DNA of 64,000 nt from Ferroplasma acidarmanus Fer1 (GCF_000152265.2 NC_021592.1:558001-622000); one strand, 5' to 3'; positions 34,392 through 47,290 are shown, numbered from the stretch's first letter. Notes: a model not told the origin generated them from the sequence alone. Translations and numbers: made by a program.

Positions 34392-35438
34392 ATGCTAACA
34401 ATGAAAACACTACATAAAATCATTTATAGTGATGCAAGAGAAATGAAGGAAGTTAAATCTGAAAGTGTAGATTTAATGATAACCTCCCCACCATATCCTA
34501 TGATAAAGATGTGGGATGATATGTTTTCTGTACAAAATCCAGAAATAGCCGAAGCATTAAGAGAAGAAAATGGAGAAAAAGCATTTGAGTTAATGAATAA
34601 AGAATTAGATAAGGTTTGGAAAGAAGTTTACCGTGTTTTAAAGATAGGCGGGATTGCCTGTATTAATATTGGAGATGCTACAAGAAGTTTGGGCGGCAAG
34701 TTTCAAATTTACACAAATCACGCAAGAATATTGAATTATTGTTTAAGTTTAGGTTTTCATGCTCTACCCGAAATACTCTGGTTAAAAGAGACCAACAAGC
34801 CAGATAAGTTTATGGGTTCTGGAATGTTGCCAGTAGGGGCTTATGTTACATTGGAGCACGAATATATCTTAATATTAAGAAAAGGTTATAAAAGAGAATT
34901 TAAAAGTGCAGAAGAAAAACTAAATCGGCAGAATAGTGCTTTCTTCTGGGAAGAGAGAAATACATGGTTTTCTGATAAATGGAATGATCTCAATGGGGTT
35001 TTTCAGAGGTTAAACCATATAAAAGTTAGGGAGAGGAGTGGGGCTTATCCAATAGAATTGGCTTATAGGTTAATAAATATGTTCTCCGTTCAAGGGGATA
35101 CTATACTGGATCCATTTCTCGGAACAGGAACAACTACATTAGGAGCAATTGCTTCTGCAAGAAATAGTATAGGTTATGAAATTGATGGAAACTTTAAAGA
35201 TATCGTAGAAGAAAGGATTAAAAATATTAAAGATACCTCAAATATCTATATTGATGAGAGATTGTCAAGGCATATAGAATTTATGAAGAAAAGACTTGAA
35301 TTAAAAGGTGAACATAAATATTTTAATAAGAATTATAATTTTCCTGTCGTTACAAACCAGGAAAAAAATATACTTTTCTTGAAATTAAAGGAGATTAGTA
35401 AAACAAACGAGAATATATTTGAGGTTGAGTATAGTTAA
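34392..35438 (+). CDS. Type II DNA methyltransferase (amino-methyltransferase, TSPPY type)
   Basis: A 348-residue enzyme that may start at ATG 34392 or at the second Met three codons on. Motif IV is TSPPYPMI (TSPPY is typical of N4-cytosine enzymes), and motif I DPFLGTGTTTLGAIASARNSIGYEID comes near the C-terminus, so the order is that of the beta class. It transfers a methyl group from SAM to DNA. The facing gene, whose stop overlaps by 4 bp, is a MjaI-type nuclease; M.MjaI is an m4C enzyme for CTAG, so CTAG is the likely site here. Confidence 0.88.
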   Translation: MLTMKTLHKIIYSDAREMKEVKSESVDLMITSPPYPMIKMWDDMFSVQNPEIAEALREENGEKAFELMNKELDKVWKEVYRVLKIGGIACINIGDATRSLGGKFQIYTNHARILNYCLSLGFHALPEILWLKETNKPDKFMGSGMLPVGAYVTLEHEYILILRKGYKREFKSAEEKLNRQNSAFFWEERNTWFSDKWNDLNGVFQRLNHIKVRERSGAYPIELAYRLINMFSVQGDTILDPFLGTGTTTLGAIASARNSIGYEIDGNFKDIVEERIKNIKDTSNIYIDERLSRHIEFMKKRLELKGEHKYFNKNYNFPVVTNQEKNILFLKLKEISKTNENIFEVEYS

Positions 35439-36067
35439 GACAATCTTTTGATTTCGGCTTGTATATCTTCAATTATATCGGGATTTGCAATAACTTTCTT
35501 CTTTGTCTGCTCATCTTTCACAGAAAAGATATAAAATACGGCACCACCATATTTTTGAGTAAACTTTCCATGAGTTATCTTCTGTTGTGTTCTTTCATTT
35601 ATTATCTGGGTAATATATTCATACCCTGTAGGTTTTATTTGTAATCCGATATACTTATCTTTAATCTTGATAAAGAAGTCTACATTATAACCCCTATCCC
35701 AACTATCTGGTGCGGGTTCTATTTTAACTCCTAATATGTCTTGCAATTGCCCATAAATTGTTTCTTTTTCTGAAACATACCCATCAAATGTTCTATTGAT
35801 AACAAGATTAACAACAAAGTCAATACAGTCTTCTTCAGTTATGTCATCAACTTCTGCTCTTATTACTTCTGTAACTTTTACATATAATTTTTCCCCTAAT
35901 TCAATAAGATGGGATTTTGGATATACATTGTTGTAGTAATAATCTTCCCAATCCTTTAATTCTTTAGGAGAACACTTTCTTATTTCTTCAGCAACAGCCC
36001 CAACTTGTTTTTTCTTAGTTAACCCCCAACGCATATTGGCACTGTTTAGAACCCATTCTTTTGGCAT
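35435..36067 (-). CDS. MjaI-family restriction endonuclease
   Basis: A 210-residue protein. WVLNSANMRWGLTKKKQVGAVAEEIRKCSPKELKDWEDYYY at the N-terminus and DSWDRGYNVDFFIKIKDKYIGLQIKPTGYEYI in the middle match my memory of the MjaI restriction enzyme family, the latter giving a plausible D...Q/E-x-K core (VDFF...LQIK). MjaI cuts CTAG. The gene converges with the methyltransferase gene, overlapping by 4 bp. Protection and cutting would make this a complete type II system. The specificity is inferred from the family only. Confidence 0.75.
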   Translation of the reverse strand: MPKEWVLNSANMRWGLTKKKQVGAVAEEIRKCSPKELKDWEDYYYNNVYPKSHLIELGEKLYVKVTEVIRAEVDDITEEDCIDFVVNLVINRTFDGYVSEKETIYGQLQDILGVKIEPAPDSWDRGYNVDFFIKIKDKYIGLQIKPTGYEYITQIINERTQQKITHGKFTQKYGGAVFYIFSVKDEQTKKKVIANPDIIEDIQAEIKRLS

Positions 36068-36342
36068 ATAAAGTTCAGGAGGTCATACCTTAAATTCTTT
36101 TCCTAAAGACCGATATATAAGTAGTTAAACAACACTTCTCTCTCAGGATAAAGCCTACGGCTTCATGTATGGAAATAATAACCACGCCTTGTATATTTAT
36201 GTTCAAAAACATTTATTATGCAACAAAAGATATAGAATTGTTGCATTGTTTTAAATACTCTATTATTTAAAAAATCAAATACAGCAATACAGGAAAAAGT
36301 TTATATTTAAAACCATGCTACAACTTTTAAAGTGGTTGCATA
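36068..36342. other. Intergenic region with an AAGCC-tac-GGCTT hairpin
   Basis: This 275-bp stretch separates the restriction gene from the recombinase gene. At 36151-36163 it holds a perfect 5-bp inverted repeat with a 3-base loop followed by CATGTATGG, reminiscent of IS200/IS605-type end hairpins. The right end holds the promoter of the recombinase gene (TTTATATTTAAAA near 36300). Confidence 0.3.
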
Positions 36343-36960
36343 ATGAATGAAATAGGTTTGAAAAATTCAATGATGAAAATAAAGGATGAATCGGATTTGC
36401 CACAGCATATTACATATAATGAATACCAGAGTCTACTAAATGAGATAATGAATAATCCTTATAGCCATTTTCTTAACAAGAAAATGATTCCATTCCTGAA
36501 AGCCAGGGACATGTTGATGTTAAAATGCATGTGGGAACTGGGTGGAAGAATATCGGATATTTTGAATATAGAAATCAATGATATAGATTTTAAAAATAAA
36601 ATAATAGTTTTGAAGGTTAAGAAAAGGGGCGGCTTCATAAATCGGATTCCGGTATCGGATAACTTGTTATTGGACATATCTAATTTTATGAGAGCGTATC
36701 CTGAAGTCAACGGAAGGTTTTTCAAAATGGATCGGGAGACTGCCTGGAAGAAGGTAAAAGGCTATGGGGATAAAATAGGATTAAAATTACACCCGCACAT
36801 GTTCCGGCATGGATTGGCGATATATTTACTCATGAAAGGTGTTCCAATTCAGATTATCGCAAGGAGATTGGGACACAAGAATGCAATGACCACATTACAC
36901 TACTATGTTGTGATTACGCCAGAGATAGAGAGAGAAGCATTGAAGGGGATATTGCTATGA
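36343..36960 (+). CDS. Tyrosine recombinase (XerA/XerC-like), second recombinase of the element
   Basis: A 205-residue protein made almost only of the catalytic domain. Arg69 (ELGGRISDIL), a lysine near 94-95, His152-x2-Arg155 (PHMFRHG), His178 (LGHKN) and Tyr187/188 (LHYYVV) supply the full active set. The usual N-terminal core-binding domain is reduced to about 50 residues. It differs clearly from the integrase at 57010. It could act on the related repeats at 37303 and 55016. The next small frame overlaps by 4 bp. Confidence 0.82.
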   Translation: MNEIGLKNSMMKIKDESDLPQHITYNEYQSLLNEIMNNPYSHFLNKKMIPFLKARDMLMLKCMWELGGRISDILNIEINDIDFKNKIIVLKVKKRGGFINRIPVSDNLLLDISNFMRAYPEVNGRFFKMDRETAWKKVKGYGDKIGLKLHPHMFRHGLAIYLLMKGVPIQIIARRLGHKNAMTTLHYYVVITPEIEREALKGILL

Positions 36961-37151
36961 AAACAATTGATTTCACAGTATTGTGGCACGTAGTGTATCA
37001 AGGTTATTTATGCTATTTAGCAATAATTATATGTGTCTCTATGGAACATAGCAATAGAAATAGAAAAATGCGTTTTGCCAACTATATTGAAGCTAGTAGT
37101 AGGAAAGATATTGTGGAAGGCTGGAGTTATGCTCATTGGATAAAAAAATAG
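36957..37151 (+). CDS. Small hypothetical protein coupled to the recombinase
   Basis: A 64-codon frame whose ATG overlaps the recombinase stop (ATGA). It has a hydrophobic N-terminal half (VLWHVVYQGYLCYLAIIICVSM) and a charged end. The overlap is the only evidence that it is a gene; I do not recognise it. Confidence 0.35.
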   Translation: MKTIDFTVLWHVVYQGYLCYLAIIICVSMEHSNRNRKMRFANYIEASSRKDIVEGWSYAHWIKK

Positions 37152-37302
37152 GTTTTAAGAGCATATAAAGGGTTGAATCTGTTTTTCTCAGATATTCTAG
37201 CAGATAGATTTGGAATATTACATTTTCATTACAAGTGTATGAATATTTATCTAAAACATGGCTTAAAATATAACAAAATAGAGCTAATTAAAAGAATGTG
37301 CT

Positions 37303-37377
37303 ATTGGTGGTATTTTACATTGAACCATCTATGGCTTAAAATCAAGCCGTTCTAAGGTGTTTTAGAACTATGCTTTT
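37303..37377 (+). repeat. Diverged direct repeat, left copy (pairs with 55016-55092)
   Basis: This 75-bp stretch starts ATTGGTGGTATT and includes TTTTAGAACT. It is about 75% identical, in the same orientation, to 55016-55092. The two copies bracket the AbiV gene and all the metabolic cargo. It overlaps an unconvincing 60-codon frame. Confidence 0.55.
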
Positions 37378-37587
37378 GAGATGAGGGTGTTTGTATCCAG
37401 TTATATTTTCATTTTCAGCACATAGATTAAGAATATATAGGGAAAATACCAATCTGAATGTTATGCCTTTATTTAATTTCCTATAAAGAATTCTTTATAA
37501 ACGTATACATGTTATTGATATGATAATTATGGGTAAAAAAGAAATATCTAATAGGAAAAATCCTGTGGATAGGGTAAGGGCATGGGT

Positions 37588-38331
37588 ATGAGTAACAATA
37601 AAGATCTTAAGGATGTAAAAAAACACGAGTTTACCGAAAACGATTGTAAAATTTGTATGAGAAATGCTGAGAGATTACTCGACGATGCTTTAAATAATGA
37701 TATTTCAATTCAGACTAGAACAGCGCTGATGGAACTGTCGTTTGAAGAAACTGCTAAGTCTATATTCCTGTTTGATTACAAACGGTCAGATGACCATGGA
37801 CAATCATTGGTGGGAGGCAATGTGGAAGAGACTTTAATAAAGATTTTTCAGTCTCATAGGATTAAGATAGAAATAATGAAAAACTTACTTGATGACGGCT
37901 CTAAAAAGATTCTAACACTTGACTTGAACGAATATTCATCTTATATTGGTGGTATCATACAAGATGGCATGTTCGGGGAAAAACGTGATTCGAGGCGTAT
38001 TAAAATAAGTAATGAAAGGAAAATATACTCAAGTGAAGAGCTGTCAAATAGTGTTAAAAAAATGGCTAAGGATATTATAGATACTATGAGTAGTCAAAAC
38101 ATAAAATATTACAATGACTTAAAAAACGAATCTCTGTATGTGGGATTAGACGCCTCAACGGGTCTCCTCCAATCTCCTCCAGTGCCTAAAAACAAGAAGA
38201 TTGTGGGATATATAGCGTTCTTCATAATTACTCAGCTTATATATCAGTGGGATGATTTTGGGGAAAAAAAGAAAGTGAAAAATCTCTTGGAAAAATATAA
38301 GAACCATCTTGGAGAGTACATACAATTATAA
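37588..38331 (+). CDS. AbiV-like abortive infection protein
   Basis: A 247-residue protein from ATG 37588; an in-frame ATG two codons earlier is also possible. The N-terminal half fits the AbiV family, a HEPN-like helical bundle: CKICMRNAERLLDDALNNDISIQTRTALMELSFEETAKSIFLF and, later, IFQSHRIKIEIMKNLL. AbiV of lactococci stops phage growth by blocking translation. The start overlaps (ATGA) the end of a 20-codon open frame beginning at 37529, which may couple translation. It sits near the restriction-modification genes, supporting a defence role. Confidence 0.65.
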   Translation: MSNNKDLKDVKKHEFTENDCKICMRNAERLLDDALNNDISIQTRTALMELSFEETAKSIFLFDYKRSDDHGQSLVGGNVEETLIKIFQSHRIKIEIMKNLLDDGSKKILTLDLNEYSSYIGGIIQDGMFGEKRDSRRIKISNERKIYSSEELSNSVKKMAKDIIDTMSSQNIKYYNDLKNESLYVGLDASTGLLQSPPVPKNKKIVGYIAFFIITQLIYQWDDFGEKKKVKNLLEKYKNHLGEYIQL

Positions 38332-38404: not shown

Positions 38405-39226
38405 TCATAGAAGTGAGCAGGAGAAACCACATTCAAATTTGTCATTTTGTTTTAACGTTTTTAATCCCATACCGTTATTAAAGCAATTAGGCGCTCCGGT
38501 TAATGGTTCAAATGCCACTGAATTTTGACCAGCATAAGTGCCATTATAAATTTCAAAAAAAGGCATATTATATCTAATTATCTCCATTTTCAAATACTTT
38601 GTGTAGAAATCTACAATACCCCCACCAAAATAGGCATTGTCATATAATTTATTGGGTACATTGCTGATAGTATCAGTTATCCTCTGAGTAGTAATACTCT
38701 TTGTGTTGTATCGTTTTAATTGCACTGCAGCATCATGAAATTCAAATTTCCAATAATCGCTAAAAATAAAATATGGATGAGCTCCACACATAATAGGGCA
38801 GGATTTATCACCAATATTTTTTATACTATAATCAACACTGAATTTTGCATTATCAATCATGTAAATAACATCTATTAATAGCTTTGACGGATAGAAATTT
38901 TCATTTAAAATTACTTGAAAATCAATTTTTTTATCGCTCTTAGTAATAACTTTCCATGTTTGATCGAGTGTTAAACCATGCATACTATTAATTAAATCAC
39001 CTTCATATCCAGCATTTTTTGGCAATAAATACTGCTTTCCATTAAATTTATAAGTTGCTTTTGATACAATATCTGCATATGGTATGAGTATACTTAACCC
39101 ACCGTGCGGTTCTATGTTATCATTAGTTTCTTTTAATATATTTATACCATTAATAATCAGGGATTCAACATATGCGCCCTTTCTAGAAATTAATACTTTA
39201 GAATTATTTTCCAGTAAAGTTATCAA
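38405..39226 (-). CDS. Aldose 1-epimerase (mutarotase) family protein
   Basis: A 273-residue beta-sandwich enzyme. GGLSILIPYADIVS, the conserved HG in SMHGLTLDQTWKV, CGAHPYFIF and the late acidic residue in AGQNSVAFEPLTGAPN fit the galactose mutarotase family (His for general acid, Glu for base). It would interconvert alpha and beta forms of a sugar. It is the last gene of a four-gene minus-strand operon with a permease, an SDR and a SelA-fold PLP enzyme, overlapping the last by 23 bp. The sugar is probably the operon's substrate. Confidence 0.75.
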   Translation of the reverse strand: MITLLENNSKVLISRKGAYVESLIINGINILKETNDNIEPHGGLSILIPYADIVSKATYKFNGKQYLLPKNAGYEGDLINSMHGLTLDQTWKVITKSDKKIDFQVILNENFYPSKLLIDVIYMIDNAKFSVDYSIKNIGDKSCPIMCGAHPYFIFSDYWKFEFHDAAVQLKRYNTKSITTQRITDTISNVPNKLYDNAYFGGGIVDFYTKYLKMEIIRYNMPFFEIYNGTYAGQNSVAFEPLTGAPNCFNNGMGLKTLKQNDKFECGFSCSLL

Positions 39227-40382
39227 TATTATTACCCACTATTTCTCTATCTACAAGCTGTAAAATAGCGTTAGAAATTATCTTCTCCTCACCAGTCCTT
39301 AAACATTGTGGATTAATATATAATTTCCCCTTGTCTACTAAACAATAGATAGCGGGGTTATAGTATTTTAAATTATTTGCTATAACACCTGCATCTACTT
39401 TATTATTGAATTCCACTTCAACGCGGGGTATTGTAACAGGTCTTGGAAAATACCATGGCGGATTTATTTTTTTAATGCGGATTGAAGTATTATTTCCAAG
39501 AATATCTATTATTTCTTTACATTTGGTGTTCATGTCATTCATAAACTCTGATTCATTCAATTTCAGAAACTTATCAACAGCAACTGTTGTGGCTACAATA
39601 TCTTCTTTGCTGACTTTCATTGTTCTTCCTATGAATATCGTATTTCTAGAATTACTAATTTCCTCGCTATGTGGACCTATTTCTTTTGCAATCTCTATAA
39701 TTTCCTTTTTGCCTAACATTAGTCCAGTGTCACTGAAGCTTCCAATAGCTTTTCCACCACTTAATATAACTATATCTGCCCCAGCTTCCAGATACCGTTT
39801 AAAATTATAAATGGGTGGAACTTCTGCAGCAGCGTCAACTATTACAGGTATCCCAAAGCTGTGGGTTATGGAAACGACATCTTCTATTTTTAAACTTTCC
39901 CTTAATGGTTCAAATGCAAAGTAAACAATTGCCACAGTTTTATCTGCAAATTTTTTCAATGCTTTTTTAAAAGATAGTTCTGAAGTATCTTTCGCGGTTC
40001 CAATCTCTTTTATTTTAGCTCCTGTAAGTTTTATAAGATATTTAAATTCGCTAATCTGATTCTTGAATGTCAGGACAAATTTTTCATCTCGTCCCAACTC
40101 CGGTAATTTATATTTTAGTCCAGGTTTTGATTTAACTATGCATGATGCAACAGATAAAACTATTGCAGCAGCGGCACCATTTGTAATATATGCCGATTCA
40201 ACTCCCATACTTTTTGCTATATTGCATCCGGCATCATCTATTAGCTGTTTCATATTAACAAATACCTTGCTTACCTCTTCGATAGATGACAATACTTCGG
40301 GAGAAATCCTATTTCCACCAAGAAATGTAACAGTACCTATTGCATTTATTACTTCTTTTATTTTTAGTTTATCTTCATACAT
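39204..40382 (-). CDS. SelA-fold PLP enzyme, D-glucosaminate dehydratase/ammonia-lyase-like
   Basis: A 392-residue fold-type I PLP protein. ATG 40382 is chosen because AGGTGA lies 5 bp upstream. INAIGTVTFLGGNRISPEV and SKVFVNMKQLIDDAGCNIAK at the N-terminus and the PLP lysine in ILSGGKAIGSFSDTGLMLG (Lys211) match the SelA/DgaE group. SelA itself (Sec synthesis) is unlikely in this setting, since no Sec genes are seen. Members such as D-glucosaminate(-6-phosphate) ammonia-lyase remove water and ammonia from an amino sugar acid. The operon with an SDR and an epimerase supports that reading. The substrate is inferred. Confidence 0.7.
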   Translation of the reverse strand: MYEDKLKIKEVINAIGTVTFLGGNRISPEVLSSIEEVSKVFVNMKQLIDDAGCNIAKSMGVESAYITNGAAAAIVLSVASCIVKSKPGLKYKLPELGRDEKFVLTFKNQISEFKYLIKLTGAKIKEIGTAKDTSELSFKKALKKFADKTVAIVYFAFEPLRESLKIEDVVSITHSFGIPVIVDAAAEVPPIYNFKRYLEAGADIVILSGGKAIGSFSDTGLMLGKKEIIEIAKEIGPHSEEISNSRNTIFIGRTMKVSKEDIVATTVAVDKFLKLNESEFMNDMNTKCKEIIDILGNNTSIRIKKINPPWYFPRPVTIPRVEVEFNNKVDAGVIANNLKYYNPAIYCLVDKGKLYINPQCLRTGEEKIISNAILQLVDREIVGNNIDNFTGK

Positions 40383-40400
40383 TGTAATCACCTGCTTAAT

Positions 40401-41186
40401 TTAGACTAGGTAAAGCCCCCCATCAATAATTATATCTTCTCCGTTAATGTAATTAGATGCAGAAGATAAAAGAAATAAAACTACTGATGCCACTTCATCA
40501 GCAGTTCCTCTCCTCCGTAATATGCTCTCTGAAGAGTATTCCTTTTCTGTTTCTGCAAAACTTCTACCTTTGATTTTGGATTGGGCTTCAATATCAAGGT
40601 CGTTCATCGGAGTTTTTATATTGCCTGGACTTACACTGTTCACGCGAATTTTATATTTTCCAAAATCAGCGGCAAGTGCCTTAGTAAAAGCTAGAGTTGC
40701 TCCTTTAGTAGTAGAATAAAGCGTATGCCCTTCTTCTGTTCTCTGACCTGAGACCGAAGCTATATTAACAATTGATGGGTGTGTTGAATTTTTCAATAAT
40801 TTAGTGCAATATTTCGTCATGTTAAACTCCCCTAAAATATTTGCAGATACTATATTATTAAAATCTTGTAAAGATGAATTTTCTATATCTTTATAAAAAT
40901 AGATTCCTGCATTGTTGACAAGAAAATCTACCCGACTCTCTTTACTGTATATATATTGAAATAAATTCTCCATATCATCACTATTAGAAGTGTAACCAGA
41001 ATATCTTATAACATTTTTGTTAACTGTAAATTTATCATCCAACGTATTTGGAAATTTTGGATCGATAGTATATACCTTACATCCAGAACTTATTAGCTGA
41101 CTTATTATTGCTTTTCCTATACCTTGGAAACCACCACTTACAACCGCAATGGTATCATTGAATTTAAAATTAAAATCATTTGTCAT
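40401..41186 (-). CDS. Short-chain dehydrogenase/reductase
   Basis: A 261-residue Rossmann-fold oxidoreductase. It has the nucleotide-binding motif VSGGFQGIGKAI, NNAGIYF, the catalytic Ser in IVNIASVSGQ and Tyr/Lys in YSTTKGATL, and a C-terminal GEDIIIDGGLYLV. An acidic residue after beta-2 (TIDP) favours NAD(H). It lies 4 bp after the permease stop and 18 bp before the PLP enzyme. In this operon it could oxidise a sugar or amino sugar at C1. Confidence 0.85.
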   Translation of the reverse strand: MTNDFNFKFNDTIAVVSGGFQGIGKAIISQLISSGCKVYTIDPKFPNTLDDKFTVNKNVIRYSGYTSNSDDMENLFQYIYSKESRVDFLVNNAGIYFYKDIENSSLQDFNNIVSANILGEFNMTKYCTKLLKNSTHPSIVNIASVSGQRTEEGHTLYSTTKGATLAFTKALAADFGKYKIRVNSVSPGNIKTPMNDLDIEAQSKIKGRSFAETEKEYSSESILRRRGTADEVASVVLFLLSSASNYINGEDIIIDGGLYLV

Positions 41187-41190
41187 TTTC

Positions 41191-42669
41191 TCACCTCCTC
41201 CCTACAGCTTCCTCATTTTCATCACTTATATCATTCATGGAATAAAGCTCACCTTTTTCATACTTCACAGCTATATAAATGATACTGAAAACTATTAATA
41301 TCACCATAAGCACAAAACCAAATAAATATGGTTCTCCGATCCCAATGTAACCTTCTATGTCTGCATATACAAATAGGCCTCCGGCAATTATAGTAGTTAC
41401 CATTGTCAATAAAATGTTTTTAATAGTAAAAATGCTTGTACCTATTTTATGCAGGAAAAATGGCAACGCCGCATCAGCAATTAAATGCTGTATTATCCAC
41501 ATGAAAGTTGTTAGGGCACCGAATAGGAAAAGTGAATAAAATATACCATTCGCATATCCATATATTGAAACAAGGATTAAGGGCGAAATAATAGATAATA
41601 TAGATGTTATAGCAAGTTCAAAAAGTGCCGCGATGACAGGGGTTTTCCTTGATTTATTTAATGTGGCAAATCTTTTTGGAAAGAAAAATTCATCTCTCGC
41701 CATTGAATATATTAATCTTGCCCCCGACATTCCTCCCACAACACCTGCCCATACTTGACCGGTTAGAGCAATTATTAAGAATATTAAAACACCTATAGAC
41801 CCTATAAATGGCAAGAAAGCTACAACTGCAGGATTCCAATCAGTTGCAAGACTTGAAGAATTGGATAAACCCACAGCAACAACTTCAGCATAAGTTACTA
41901 GCACACTAACAATTGTAAGTAATATTATTGATAGTATCACTGATTTCCAAACAATTCTCTTTGGGGTATGAGATTCCTCGGCAAAATAAAAAGGTGCTCC
42001 GTATCCGGTGAAAAATAAAAATCCACCAGTGATAGCGGCAAGCATAACTCCAGAAATACCAGCAGGTGCTCGAGCTATATTAAATGCCTGAAAAGTATTA
42101 AAAGGGGTTCTAATAATTACGATAAGCGAGTATATAATTACTATTATCACCTGTATAGCAACAACTAGTATTACTGATTTGCCTGACATTTTTATGTTGA
42201 ATACCGTGAATATAAACATAACAAATGTGGCAATTAATGCGATTATAATGTATAAATAAATTGGCAGAGTATAATTATATATGGCAGAAAGAGCTGTAGA
42301 AAGGATATATGAAACAGCAACCACAGATACTACATCCATCATAATAAAGTACCATAAATCGTCATTGCCGTGAATTACCAGCACTTCTACCAAGGCCTTT
42401 TCTGCAAATCCATAATATCCGCCTGCAAAACTAACATATTTTGAAAACAACATAGCTGGAACCGAAACTATTAATATTGCTGCGGCAGCTATTAGAGGAA
42501 CTACAGGTGCAGCAAATCCAGCATACACAACTGCGCTTGCTCCATTAGATACTGCAAATGATAATGGATAAATGGAACCCATAGATAGTGCCACAAGAGT
42601 CCACAATCCAATACTGCCCTTACTTAAATGTGTTGTCTCAGTATTCTGTTTTATTTTTGAATTATCCAT
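41191..42669 (-). CDS. APC-superfamily permease
   Basis: A 492-residue membrane protein with about 12-13 hydrophobic segments. GSIGLWTLVALSMGSIYPLSFAVSNGA and VSFAGGYYGFAEKAL are the family's first helices. As first gene of the operon it probably imports the substrate, which should then carry an amino group, such as an amino sugar or its acid. It follows the HTH_10 regulator gene on the same strand by about 208 bp. Confidence 0.8.
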   Translation of the reverse strand: MDNSKIKQNTETTHLSKGSIGLWTLVALSMGSIYPLSFAVSNGASAVVYAGFAAPVVPLIAAAAILIVSVPAMLFSKYVSFAGGYYGFAEKALVEVLVIHGNDDLWYFIMMDVVSVVAVSYILSTALSAIYNYTLPIYLYIIIALIATFVMFIFTVFNIKMSGKSVILVVAIQVIIVIIYSLIVIIRTPFNTFQAFNIARAPAGISGVMLAAITGGFLFFTGYGAPFYFAEESHTPKRIVWKSVILSIILLTIVSVLVTYAEVVAVGLSNSSSLATDWNPAVVAFLPFIGSIGVLIFLIIALTGQVWAGVVGGMSGARLIYSMARDEFFFPKRFATLNKSRKTPVIAALFELAITSILSIISPLILVSIYGYANGIFYSLFLFGALTTFMWIIQHLIADAALPFFLHKIGTSIFTIKNILLTMVTTIIAGGLFVYADIEGYIGIGEPYLFGFVLMVILIVFSIIYIAVKYEKGELYSMNDISDENEEAVGRR

Positions 42670-42877
42670 ATAATATTAATATTTTCTTAAATATAATACA
42701 AATGGTTAAAAAGTTAATATTTATCTGCACTCAATTATATATTTAATAGTGTTTTTCATATTAAGCAATTGGTAATAGCAAGATTATCTGATGGAATACG
42801 CTGTCGGATTATGGCAAGTAATATAATGTCCCTAATGCAAGCATCATGAAATTTTTGTGTCAAAACATACCACTAAA

Positions 42878-43570
42878 TTACATATTATGGAAGGAATAGT
42901 TGCAATCACTCCCCAGCATAATTTTTTTTTCAGCATCTCTTAAATATTTATCAGCTGCTACTGTCGAAATATCTAACTCCTTTGCTATATCTTTAATATG
43001 ACATTTCTTAGGATTATCAAAAAAACCACAGGACAAAGCGATTTGTATTGTTATTTTCTCTTGCTCAGTAAGCATATACCTAAAGTTAAATGATCTTTCA
43101 TCAATTTTATGTTTTTCTAAATTTGTTATTTTACCAATACTATTTAATATATCTATTATTTGTTTAATATTAGATTCTTCTGGTAATAAAAATGAAATAT
43201 AATCTATCCCACTTTGTGATATTTCTCTGTAATTTATAACCCCCAAAGAGTTAAGCAAACCGTATGGAGAATCTATAGAATGTTCTAAAAACGATATTCT
43301 TAGCATACGACCCTCTAAAAAACTATTTTCCATAGAAACAATAGATGGATTTTTTTTTAAGTTTGAAATTATAAAAGAAACTTTTTTATTGGTGTTAATG
43401 GGATAATAATCTTCAATTGTGAATAAATATTTATTTGACTTCATTGCAATTGACGTAGTTAGAAACAACTTTATATCGTTCAATTTGAACCCAATATCTG
43501 ACATACAATTGTTATGTTTTAGATTTATTTTTAGAGCTATAAGTTCAATTTTATCTTCCTTAATATTCAT
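42878..43570 (-). CDS. HTH_10 (Bat-like) transcriptional regulator
   Basis: A 230-residue protein. The C-terminal segment LTEQEKITIQIALSCGFFDNPKKCHIKDIAKELDISTVAADKYLRDAEKKI is a clear HTH_10 domain, as in archaeal bacterio-opsin activator relatives. The N-terminal 160 residues are probably a ligand- or partner-binding domain. It is encoded upstream of the sugar operon on the same strand and is its most likely regulator. Confidence 0.8.
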   Translation of the reverse strand: MNIKEDKIELIALKINLKHNNCMSDIGFKLNDIKLFLTTSIAMKSNKYLFTIEDYYPINTNKKVSFIISNLKKNPSIVSMENSFLEGRMLRISFLEHSIDSPYGLLNSLGVINYREISQSGIDYISFLLPEESNIKQIIDILNSIGKITNLEKHKIDERSFNFRYMLTEQEKITIQIALSCGFFDNPKKCHIKDIAKELDISTVAADKYLRDAEKKIMLGSDCNYSFHNM

Positions 43571-44127
43571 AAAGTATTATTAATTTTATGCTATTAAAGG
43601 TTTGTGCCCATAATTATATATGTCTATAAAGTATACTATATTAATTAGTGTGTAAAAATAATACGATATCATACTTTGTTACATTTATAATTTTGGCTTA
43701 TATATGAACATACAGATTAACAATTCCAGGAATTTGGTTTGCCTGACAATCTAATAGAAATAAAATGGATATGTTGTAAAAATATGATAATAATGGTTAC
43801 CCATGGAGATAGCAAAACAAAGGATTTTATTAATCTTCCCATATCATTAAAAGGGTCCAAATTTAAAGGTGACATACCAAGGTGTTACTTTCCTAAATTT
43901 TAATCGTTCATTTTAAAATTAATTACGTCAATTTCTATCAATAGATCTCATGAAAGCGTCATGTTCGCATATCGGCTGAAGTGATGTGTTAATTCTCAAT
44001 TGTGAAAAAAATTTGTAATTATAACTGTATCCCATTTAAATCACCTTATCAGTATTTACCTGAATTAATACAGTCCCATACATGTTATCCCCCATTACAT
44101 AAATTTAAAGTTTGTAACTCTACTGGG
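43571..44127. other. Intergenic region between two catabolic clusters
   Basis: These 557 bp hold no supported gene. A 39-codon frame at 43784-43903 (MIIMVTHGDSKTKDF...) could be a gene scrap but matches nothing I know. The left end holds the regulator promoter (TATATGT region near 43615), and the right end the 3' flank of the carbamoylase gene. Confidence 0.35.
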
Positions 44128-45327
44128 CTACAGGTTTTCAACAGTTCTTTTCAATACAGAATATCCGTTAATTAAATCCCGGTCAGATGAGTACTCCTCC
44201 TTTGTATGGCTCCTTCCATTATGTGATGGAATAAATATCATAGCTGTGGGTACCACCCTATTCATGTACTGTGCATCATGCCCTGGCCAGCTGTACAATT
44301 CTTTATATTTCAGGTTGAGCGCTCTGCAGGATTTTATTATCTCCTTTCTCATATCCTCATCAAATAGTGTAGTTTCTGTAGTCCACTGGTTTTTGAAATC
44401 TACCGGTACGCCTTCTTCTGAAGCTATTCTTTCTGATATTTCCTTTGCCATTTTTGAATACTCTTCTGCAGTTTTTTTATCCGGGCTTCTGGTATCAAGG
44501 TTCATTGTTACTTTTCCCGGAATAACATTGTACGCATTGGGGAAATTATTAATTTTCCCTATCGTCATGGTTAATTCCTTCCCTGATGACTTAGCTATAT
44601 CCCTTACAGCTACAGTAAACCTTGATGCAGCTACAAGTGCATCTTTCCTTACCTTCATGGGTGTTGGTCCCGCCTGGTTTGATTCACCGGTAAAGGATAT
44701 ATTGTCCACAACCATTGTTACTATGCCTTTTGGTATTCCTATCTGGTAATTTTCCAGTTCCAGAACAGGACCCTGTTCAATGTGCAATTCTATGTACCGT
44801 GATATGTCCTGGTTTTTAACCCTGTTCTGTTCCTCTCCCATATAGCCTGATTTCTCCAGCGCATCCTCAAATGTAATTCCATCGCTGTCTTTCCGTGAAT
44901 AGGCGAATTCCTTTGTGAATACACCTGTTGAAATCCCTGAGCCAAGAAGTGATGGCTGGAACCTGGCACCCTCTTCGTTGGTAAAATCTATAGCTGTAAT
45001 TTTCCTATTTTTTAATGTGCTTCCCAGGTCTTTTAAAAGCTGCATGCCGGACATTACGCCATAGAAACCATCAAATCTTCCCCCATTGGGTACGGAATCC
45101 ATGTGTGAACCTATAGCTGTATTGTCTTTCCCGGAACCCAGTGTTCCGAATATTAAACCGGCATCATCATGTTTTATATCTGCTTTTACTGCTCTCATTT
45201 CACCCTCAAGGTTTTTCCTGGCCTGTATATCATATTCATTAAGTGCAAGCCTATTCACTCCATTTTCCTCGGCCCATCCCACTGATGTGAGCCTGTGGAA
45301 CATTGTTAAAAAATCTTCATTAACCAT
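44128..45327 (-). CDS. M20-family N-carbamoyl amino acid amidohydrolase / allantoate amidohydrolase
   Basis: A 399-residue binuclear metal hydrolase. Ligands are visible in IGSHMDSVPNGGRFDG (His75, Asp86), FTNEEGARF (Glu118/119), ELHIEQGPVLE (His182) and a C-terminal SHNGRSHT. EQGPVLE and the GRFDGFYGV loop separate the carbamoylase/allantoate/beta-ureidopropionase group from peptidases. It would remove the carbamoyl group from the ring-opened product of the hydantoinase encoded at 50531. It lies 34 bp after the aminotransferase gene. Confidence 0.87.
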   Translation of the reverse strand: MVNEDFLTMFHRLTSVGWAEENGVNRLALNEYDIQARKNLEGEMRAVKADIKHDDAGLIFGTLGSGKDNTAIGSHMDSVPNGGRFDGFYGVMSGMQLLKDLGSTLKNRKITAIDFTNEEGARFQPSLLGSGISTGVFTKEFAYSRKDSDGITFEDALEKSGYMGEEQNRVKNQDISRYIELHIEQGPVLELENYQIGIPKGIVTMVVDNISFTGESNQAGPTPMKVRKDALVAASRFTVAVRDIAKSSGKELTMTIGKINNFPNAYNVIPGKVTMNLDTRSPDKKTAEEYSKMAKEISERIASEEGVPVDFKNQWTTETTLFDEDMRKEIIKSCRALNLKYKELYSWPGHDAQYMNRVVPTAMIFIPSHNGRSHTKEEYSSDRDLINGYSVLKRTVENL

Positions 45328-45361
45328 TATATCACCTCACTAAATCCACTGTAAATGCTTA

Positions 45362-46675
45362 TCATTTGATTTTCACCGCCTTCGAAAATATTTCAACGCC
45401 CCTGTTAAGCAATTCCTCCTCTATATTCAATGCACCCATGAATCTGAATACATTACCATAGTGCCCGCATGTATGCATTAACAATCCATTCTTGAGGAGT
45501 TCATGCTTTAATTCCATCATGTGCTTTGAATTCACTGGCTTTCCGTTATCTACAAGTTCTATGCCTATCATATAGCCCTTTCCGCGCACTTCCCCTATAA
45601 GGTTGGAATCTATTTTATTGAATTTGTTTAACATTTCCTTCCCGCTGGACTTCACTTTGTCGAAATATTTTGGAACCTCATTGATAACAGTTATTCCAGC
45701 AGCCATTGCAAGGGGATTAGCCCTGTATGTTCCAAGATGGAATGGCTTCGGCAATTTTTTGTCATAGTCATCCCTGTAATAAACTAATGATACTGGCAAC
45801 CCCCCGCCTATGCTCTTGCTGACACATACTATATCGGGAGTAATATTTTCATATTCAAATGCCCACATCTTGCCTGTCCTGCCTACCCCACTCTGAACCT
45901 CATCAACAATCATTGTAAGGTCGTATTCAGTACAGAATTCCCTTATGGCCTTTAAAAATCCATCTGGTGGTACTATATAACCGCCTTCTCCCTGTACAGG
46001 TTCAACTATAACAGAATCAGGCCGATCATATCCTGCTTCTCCATCATCCATTATCTTTTTCATTATAGAAATTATATCAGAAACATCATAGTCATACCAT
46101 AATTTATATGGATATGGCACCCTTATTACCTTAAACCCATCGCTGTATACTGCTTCCCTGTATTTTCTCCCGGCAGTAGCAGCAATAATTCCGCCTGATA
46201 CTCCATGGTATGCACCTTCGAATGCAATTGTTGGGGCATTCTTTTTCCTTATTGCATGTGCTATATTGATTGCAGTTTCACATGCATCGGCCCCGCTGAT
46301 TCCAAATATTGTTTTATAATTCCTCATCTCCGGGGGGAAGCTGTTTCTCAATGCTTCAAGAAAATTAATTCTAACTTCTGTAGGTATTTCCAGGGCATGC
46401 CATATGTCATCCACCTGGTTTTTTACTGCTTTTCTTATGTTATCATTAAATCCTAAATTAAGAACACTGATTCCTGATACCCAGTCAATGAAAATATTTC
46501 CATCCAGGTCTTCTATTAATGAGTTTTCAGCCCTCTTAATTGCAATGGGGAAACTATCCGGGTAGATTACTGTGCTGGACTCCATTTCCCTTTGTTTCTG
46601 TAGTAATAATTTGCTCTCCGGTCCCGGTACATCTGTAATAATTTTTGGTAGGTTTTTATAGTTATTTGATGCCAT
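45362..46675 (-). CDS. Class III aminotransferase
   Basis: A 437-residue PLP enzyme of the GABA/beta-alanine/alanine-glyoxylate aminotransferase group. It has GVSGADACETAINIA-like phosphate binding (GISGADACETAI), DEVQSGVGRTGKMWAFE, and the PLP lysine in CVSKSIGGGLPVSLV. It turns an amino acid (omega or alpha) into an oxo acid. Its operon with the carbamoylase suggests it takes the released amino acid onward. It is divergent from an Lrp-type regulator gene. Confidence 0.9.
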   Translation of the reverse strand: MASNNYKNLPKIITDVPGPESKLLLQKQREMESSTVIYPDSFPIAIKRAENSLIEDLDGNIFIDWVSGISVLNLGFNDNIRKAVKNQVDDIWHALEIPTEVRINFLEALRNSFPPEMRNYKTIFGISGADACETAINIAHAIRKKNAPTIAFEGAYHGVSGGIIAATAGRKYREAVYSDGFKVIRVPYPYKLWYDYDVSDIISIMKKIMDDGEAGYDRPDSVIVEPVQGEGGYIVPPDGFLKAIREFCTEYDLTMIVDEVQSGVGRTGKMWAFEYENITPDIVCVSKSIGGGLPVSLVYYRDDYDKKLPKPFHLGTYRANPLAMAAGITVINEVPKYFDKVKSSGKEMLNKFNKIDSNLIGEVRGKGYMIGIELVDNGKPVNSKHMMELKHELLKNGLLMHTCGHYGNVFRFMGALNIEEELLNRGVEIFSKAVKIK

Positions 46676-46837
46676 AAAAAATATAGCTTATCAAATGATA
46701 TAATAATTTCTATGGTGCCTTTACACATGAATTTTAAAGAATACTGTTCTTGATTTAATATATATAATAATGTTAACATCAATATAATTGATAATTTAGT
46801 GAAAATCTTTATTAATACAGTTATTATATATTTATAT

Positions 46838-47290
46838 ATGGATAGTTTTGATTTAAAAATTTTAAAGGAACTTTCTAAAGATTCAAGAAAACCTTTGAGA
46901 GAGATAGGAAAGTCCATAGGAATATATTCACCGTCTGCAATAAGCCGGAGAATAAAAGAAATGCAAAAAGATAAGTTGATAAAGGGTTTTAAGGCAGAAA
47001 TAGATTTTAACAAACTAGGATATAATTTTATCACAGCGACCTTTGTGAGGGCTAAATATGGAATAGAATACCATGATATAGTTGCTGAAAAGATAATGAA
47101 GATCAAAGGGGTAATTGATGTTCTGTTCCTGCTCGGAGACATTGATTTTTACATTCTATGTGCCACAAGGAATAAGGATGATTACGTCAACATATTGGAT
47201 GAACTGGAGAAAATAATGGAAATTGAACGATCAGATACGCACACAGTACTGAATATTTACAAATACCACGATATTTCAAACATTTTTTAA
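46838..47290 (+). CDS. Lrp/AsnC-family transcriptional regulator
   Basis: A 150-residue protein from ATG 46838; the frame upstream lies in the promoter. The N-terminal HTH (DLKILKELSKDSRKPLREIGKSIGIYSPSAISRRIKEMQKDKLIKGFKAEI) is joined to a RAM-type ligand-binding domain (VRAKYGIEYHD...VLFLLGDIDFYILCATRNKDDY). TATATATTTATATATG stands just before the ATG. It is divergent from the aminotransferase-carbamoylase operon and likely senses an amino acid to control it. Confidence 0.88.
   Translation: MDSFDLKILKELSKDSRKPLREIGKSIGIYSPSAISRRIKEMQKDKLIKGFKAEIDFNKLGYNFITATFVRAKYGIEYHDIVAEKIMKIKGVIDVLFLLGDIDFYILCATRNKDDYVNILDELEKIMEIERSDTHTVLNIYKYHDISNIF

Follow-up and report, generated by a model that had tools for sequence, protein, structure and literature searches.

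The five-gene cluster at positions 38,405–43,570 of the window (the whole stretch analysed, 64,000 nucleotides of the Ferroplasma acidarmanus Fer1 genome) probably specifies the oxidative breakdown of a 2-amino-2-deoxy-aldose (glucosamine or galactosamine, for example) without phosphorylation. We hold this reading, with fair rather than high confidence, to be the best explanation. For this pathway we infer a substrate, an order of steps, a product and a mode of regulation as follows. The APC permease would import the amino sugar, the epimerase would accelerate the interconversion of its anomers, and an NAD-linked SDR would oxidise C1 to form the lactone or the amino sugar acid. In the next step, elimination of the C3 hydroxyl group and loss of ammonia, catalysed by the SelA-fold PLP enzyme, would yield KDG or a stereoisomer, a 2-keto-3-deoxy sugar acid that could enter the non-phosphorylative Entner-Doudoroff route via KDG aldolase and then MOFRL glycerate kinase. 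The HTH_10 protein would turn the cluster on. Sister clusters outside the window, which have a fold-type III PLP enzyme, provide the strongest support, and together with the kinship of the HTH_10 regulators they make an amino-sugar pathway the best explanation. The comparative evidence supports this predicted pathway better than the window alone does. Against it, the SDR scores above no aldose-dehydrogenase cut-off, the PLP enzyme lacks His163 of DgaE, and RidA is absent from the window genome.

Gene cluster and proposed pathway

The window belongs to a complete Thermoplasmatales genome of 1,935,211 bp. All five open reading frames of the original prediction were recovered on the minus strand, at the same positions and in the same families (Table 1). 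The tight operon that it described holds for the permease, SDR, PLP enzyme, and epimerase genes, which are separated by +4, +9, and −23 nt, and with this spacing the four genes resemble a single transcript. The HTH_10 gene lies upstream, as predicted, and the 208 bp that separate it from the permease gene suggest that it may have a promoter of its own. The PLP gene starts with GTG, with an alternative ATG three codons downstream, and the epimerase gene starts with TTG and overlaps the PLP gene by 23 nt. The catalytic residues of the epimerase, SDR, and PLP enzyme are intact.

Table 1. Genes of the cluster and adjoining features, with positions in the window.
Feature	Position	Strand	Family match or remark
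HTH_10 (Bat-type) transcription regulator, 230 aa	42878..43570	-	PF04967 1.5e-16
APC-superfamily permease, 492 aa	41191..42669	-	PF13520 4.3e-15
SDR oxidoreductase, 261 aa	40401..41186	-	PF13561 8.8e-48
SelA-fold (fold-type I) PLP enzyme, 395 aa	39204..40391	-	PF03841 1.5e-8; TIGR01437 8.9e-52
Aldose 1-epimerase (mutarotase), 273 aa	38405..39226	-	PF01263 9e-25
M20-family carbamoylase/amidase (hydantoinase/carbamoylase family), neighbour	44128..45327	-	TIGR01879 338 bits, above cut-off
MjaI-type restriction endonuclease with N6/N4 methylase, tyrosine integrase, AbiV-family HEPN gene	34392-38331		beside operon

The best solved relative of the SDR is glucose 1-dehydrogenase 3vtz (1.7e-34), which we take to be from Thermoplasma volcanium; 2zk7/2dtd were also matched. 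Among NCBIfam models, those of glucose 1-dehydrogenase and aldose dehydrogenase score best without reaching their cut-offs (171.5 against 215 and 162.5 against 341). The catalytic tetrad is present (N116, S144, Y157, and K161), and on this resemblance we propose that the SDR is an NAD-dependent aldose 1-dehydrogenase. The epimerase reaches 88.1 bits with PF01263 (cut-off of 27), and its catalytic residues H83, H150, and E240 are invariant in five relatives. It is 43% identical to the epimerase of a fold-III cluster in G060, a sister genome and the nearest one compared.

The permease is proposed to be the amino-sugar importer; a sequence search for a solved relative found none. Positions 42355-42400, inside the permease gene, contain a local compensated frameshift relative to the orthologues (KGLGRSAGN in the alternative frame and KGFGPAAGK in the orthologues), caused by a pair of sequencing errors or else by a genuine paired indel. 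APC permeases usually transport amino acids, and one for a free amino sugar is, to our knowledge, unusual. An amino sugar acid such as D-glucosaminate, which is an amino acid and a natural APC ligand, might instead be imported, in which case the PLP step would come first and the SDR and epimerase would act later on the 2-keto-3-deoxy acid. The OngC (PMC9537276) and Salmonella DgaE (PMC9529869) pathways both begin with imported aldonates. However, the closest solved relative of the SDR is an archaeal glucose 1-dehydrogenase, and homologues of GlcNAc kinase and GlcN-6-P deaminase in the fold-III clusters imply free amino sugars inside the cell. We consider import of the acid unlikely and retain the amino sugar as the transported compound.

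A comparison with the 117 genomes of the order places the nearest relatives of the HTH_10 protein in two fold-III PLP clusters (44-45% identity) and three DgaE-type clusters (31-33%), and the next best match beyond the PLP clusters has an E-value of 2.4e-13. This distribution suggests that it is probably a cluster-specific regulator. A promoter motif common to both cluster types was sought, and only AT-rich words were found.

Entry of the product into the Entner-Doudoroff route, which was part of the original prediction, is consistent with the presence of KDG-aldolase-family and MOFRL glycerate-kinase (PF05161, 9.1e-30) genes in the window genome. The best KDG-aldolase candidate (G000:C1:1702339-1703163, in the window genome) scores 262 bits with its best model, NF040954, below the cut-off of 390. 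No glycosidase or deacetylase gene adjoins the window cluster.

The PLP enzyme

The best curated family of the PLP enzyme is the DgaE family TIGR01437, with 130.4 bits, which does not reach the cut-off of 600 bits. Its best solved relatives are DgaE (7lc0) and 8t7j; the profile match to 7lc0 covers residues 10-365 of that structure (E = 1.2e-43), at an identity to DgaE of only ~24%. The AlphaFold model (pLDDT of 89.4) gave TM-scores of 0.82 with 8t7j (Cap15) and 0.79 with 7lc0. Lys214, the PLP lysine, is conserved, and Lys is also found at this position in all 76 other relatives aligned. The SelA model TIGR00474 yielded 50.1 bits against a cut-off of 267.9, so the enzyme is not recognised as a selenium transferase. 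Another SelA-family match in the genome was considered as a paralogue and rejected, because the sequence is a serine hydroxymethyltransferase.

The active site differs from that of DgaE. His162 and His163 of DgaE are absent from all five cluster enzymes, which have Glu or Asp followed by a gap in the alignment. Among the residues of the DgaE phosphate site (Arg301, Arg332, and Arg346), which was placed by manual docking (PMC9529869), Arg301 is kept, position 332 is Leu or Tyr, and position 346 is Gln. The absence of two of the three Arg residues would fit a non-phosphorylated substrate; most environmental relatives also lack these His and Arg residues, and the Arg loss is not specific to the cluster. 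Judged from its sequence, the PLP enzyme is therefore DgaE-like and not DgaE. His163 is the proton donor in DgaE, and the H163A mutant releases an enamine (PMC9529869). By analogy with this mutant, the PLP enzyme, which has no such His, may release an enamine, and the presence of RidA in many sister clusters fits this possibility.

A true DgaE, whose substrate would be an amino sugar acid 6-phosphate produced by a kinase encoded elsewhere, in the manner suggested for Natrarchaeobius (PMC12343721), would account for the match to the DgaE model. It is the least probable of the readings considered here, given that Arg332, Arg346, and His162/163 are missing from every cluster enzyme and that the operon contains no kinase.

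In the PLP tree, the five cluster enzymes form one fully supported clade on a long branch, and the family around it is broad, consisting mostly of proteins from Chloroflexota, Poribacteria, and Latescibacterota. Cap15 (8t7j) is an oxygen- and PLP-dependent monooxygenase-decarboxylase whose substrate is glycyluridine (PMC6384614). With this precedent, and with Cap15 as the top fold match of the predicted model, slightly above DgaE, the window enzyme might convert an amino sugar acid into a shorter carboxamide and CO2. However, the tree places Cap15 with DgaE and outside the window clade, and the combination of a deaminase-type fold-III enzyme with RidA in the sister clusters fits the loss of ammonia. 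We regard a Cap15-type reaction as very unlikely, and we propose, from the family relationships, that the PLP enzyme is a 2-amino-2-deoxyaldonate ammonia-lyase. The substrates of DgaE and Cap15 are both beta-hydroxy-alpha-amino acids on a sugar skeleton. The kinship with these two enzymes and the loss of the phosphate-site Arg residues favour the oxidation and deamination of an amino sugar that was originally predicted, with a putative substrate, step order, and product.

Neighbourhoods of bacterial DgaE-like genes (79 loci) were examined as a guide to the substrate and gave no identification. Relatives of the SDR occur at only 13 of these loci, and none of the 79 has a relative of the window permease, epimerase, or regulator nearby. 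Genes that commonly accompany them, with families assigned partly by eye, encode EF_0837-type amidohydrolases, mandelate-racemase-type enzymes, and ABC transporters. The haloarchaeon Haloferax mucosum has a DgaE-like gene in the vicinity of a GH3 gene and a sugar ABC importer, which favours the proposed pathway.

Distribution and sister clusters

With an E-value threshold of below 1e-80, an orthologue of the PLP enzyme was found in 5 of the 117 genomes of the order, namely the window genome and four Thermoplasma-group genomes that belong to a single other genus, and close orthologues of the SDR occur in exactly the same five. No close PLP orthologue was found in further genomes of a 390-genome sample of the phylum. 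The permease-SDR-PLP-epimerase order recurs in these four Thermoplasma-group genomes, with protein identities to the window of 63-66% (permease), 53-59% (SDR), 37-43% (PLP enzyme), and 38-40% (epimerase), which indicates that the arrangement in the window is not due to chance. In the Thermoplasma-group clusters, the HTH_10 gene, whose product is 31-33% identical to that of the window, follows the epimerase gene.

After this regulator gene, Thermoplasma-group clusters carry a gene for a membrane-anchored penicillin-acylase-family protein (L012 11499-14012 and L015 11181-13673), which could remove the acyl group from an N-acylated substrate extracellularly. In G099, a deletion has removed most of the epimerase and the regulator and has fused the front of the epimerase gene to the tail of the penicillin-acylase gene (L014 3596-4099); this cluster is in decay.

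The sister genome G060 has no orthologue of the PLP enzyme or SDR. Because of this absence, and because an MjaI-type restriction-modification pair, an integrase, and an AbiV gene lie nearby, the operon appears to be accessory DNA, probably located in a genomic island. On the other side of the operon, a recent duplication occupies positions 44128-47290, where M20 amidase, class-III aminotransferase, and Lrp genes have second copies that are 88-91% identical (91% DNA identity for the M20 amidase). The second copies of the M20 amidase and of the aminotransferase and Lrp genes are at genome positions 1752427 and 1514623, and all three genes have orthologues in G060. They were rejected as pathway members because they are duplicate gene copies and are unlinked to the operon in relatives. 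A dispersed intergenic repeat of ~230 bp, possibly a small mobile element, lies upstream of the HTH_10 gene (43653-43880), and copies with 74-77% identity occur at several sites in the same genome and also in G060 and G061.

G060 contains a second cluster type, which encodes a SIS protein, a BadF-type kinase, an APC permease, an SDR, an aldose epimerase, RidA, and a PLP enzyme of fold type III (PF01168+PF14031) that is unrelated to the fold-I enzyme of the window. The best match of the BadF-type kinase is the N-acetylglucosamine kinase NagK-II (2e-26), and the SIS protein matches GlmS and NagB-II, in each case below the equivalog cut-off. The fold-III PLP enzyme occurs in 10 of the 117 genomes, where it is repeatedly accompanied by RidA and by APC, SDR, SIS, and kinase proteins of these types (L153-L156). 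In G111, also of the Thermoplasmatales, it is part of a large glycan cluster (L157 1817-15911) with GH3, GH42, GH31, and GH20 genes, a ROK kinase, a SIS protein, an EF_0837-type deacetylase, and RidA. Next to the fold-III enzyme, an epimerase is found only in G060 and HTH_10 only in G042 and G043.

OngC of Pseudoalteromonas, a fold-III PLP enzyme of the same type, converts unphosphorylated glucosaminate to KDG by deamination, and a RidA protein is required in its cluster (PMC9537276). Both a fold-III (OngC-type) PLP deaminase and RidA are absent from the window genome, where an Ong-type system was accordingly not found. A search of whole genomes for the RidA/YjgF family found no member in the window genome or G097, as against 12 of 14 control genomes, and RidA was rejected as an obligatory partner on the basis of these two genomes.

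OngC also deaminates D-Ser and D-Thr (PMC9537276), and D-threonine aldolase and D-serine dehydratase belong to the same fold-III family as the PLP enzymes of the sister clusters. The operon might accordingly serve to break down a simple beta-hydroxy-alpha-amino acid, for example D-serine or D-threonine, which the APC permease would take up, with the SDR and epimerase acting on an unrelated carbonyl compound. We consider this improbable because the conserved operon includes a mutarotase with intact catalytic residues and because the relatives cluster with glycosidases and amino-sugar kinases. The location of OngC-family sister clusters beside NagK-II-like, NagB-II-like, GH20, and GH3 genes, together with the shared regulator family, instead strengthens the amino-sugar reading of the original prediction.

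The two cluster types have in common the regulator and the classes of transporter, dehydrogenase, and mutarotase, but not the lyase. Both types are present in G098 and in G100; a simple displacement of one PLP enzyme by the other was rejected for this reason, and the two lyases may serve different amino sugars. We tentatively suggest, with somewhat less than even confidence, that Thermoplasmatales have a modular, entirely non-phosphorylated oxidative amino-sugar pathway, made up of an APC permease, a mutarotase, an aldose dehydrogenase, and a PLP ammonia-lyase, in which the lyase is drawn from either of two unrelated folds, fold I (SelA-type) or fold III (D-serine-dehydratase-type), under one HTH_10 family.

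Significance and comparison with known systems

If the proposed pathway is correct, it would allow archaea that live in acid mine drainage and in hot, acidic soil to draw carbon and nitrogen from amino sugars (of chitin, cell walls, or glycoproteins) by way of the Entner-Doudoroff route that they already possess, without a kinase and without GlcN-6-phosphate. One pathway slot would be filled by two unrelated PLP folds, and a function would be assigned to some members of the DgaE-like family, which is large and uncharacterised and is represented in Chloroflexota, Poribacteria, and Latescibacterota. In published growth data, chitin gives no growth stimulation of Oxyplasma, and a search of open papers found no report of amino-sugar growth of Ferroplasma or Thermoplasma. 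The thermostable orthologues of the Thermoplasma group are convenient for testing the pathway.

The D-glucosaminate pathway of Salmonella (DgaABCDEF) has a homologous SelA-fold enzyme with a conserved PLP lysine, and shares with the proposed pathway the loss of water and ammonia to give a 2-keto-3-deoxy sugar acid that feeds an Entner-Doudoroff route. In contrast to Salmonella, the window cluster has no PTS or phosphorylation, uses an APC permease, places an SDR and an epimerase before the lyase, and would be regulated by HTH_10; its PLP enzyme lacks the His pair and two phosphate-site Arg residues. In the ong pathway for oxidised chitin in Pseudoalteromonas (OngB/OngC/OngD/KdgK), unphosphorylated 2-amino-2-deoxygluconate is likewise deaminated to KDG, by a PLP enzyme accompanied by RidA as in the clusters of the relatives. 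However, OngC is of fold type III, like the PLP enzymes of the sister clusters, whereas the window enzyme is of fold I; moreover, the starting compound of the ong pathway is GlcNAc-1-acid produced extracellularly, and its KDG is phosphorylated. The Shewanella N-acetylglucosamine pathway resembles the sister fold-III cluster, which is flanked by homologues of both NagK-II and NagB-II, but it is phosphorylative and non-oxidative, and these enzymes are absent from the window cluster. Cap15 of capuramycin biosynthesis shares the fold family and acts on a sugar-linked beta-hydroxy-alpha-amino acid, but it catalyses an oxygen-dependent decarboxylation in the formation of an antibiotic.

The original prediction knew of no such archaeal operon. 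This statement has to be qualified, as a 2025 paper (PMC12343721) predicted for Natrarchaeobius a related route that is phosphorylated and includes a DgaE homologue. That GlcNAc route of haloarchaea likewise uses a glucose dehydrogenase followed by the DgaE homologue, with chitinase genes nearby. It differs in the proposed phosphorylation of glucosaminate and in its IclR and RutC genes; no APC-SDR-epimerase operon was described, and the route is itself a prediction only. The novelty of the window cluster is limited by this prediction and by the ong pathway, and the proposed pathway is predicted to be a variant of the known oxidative amino-sugar routes.
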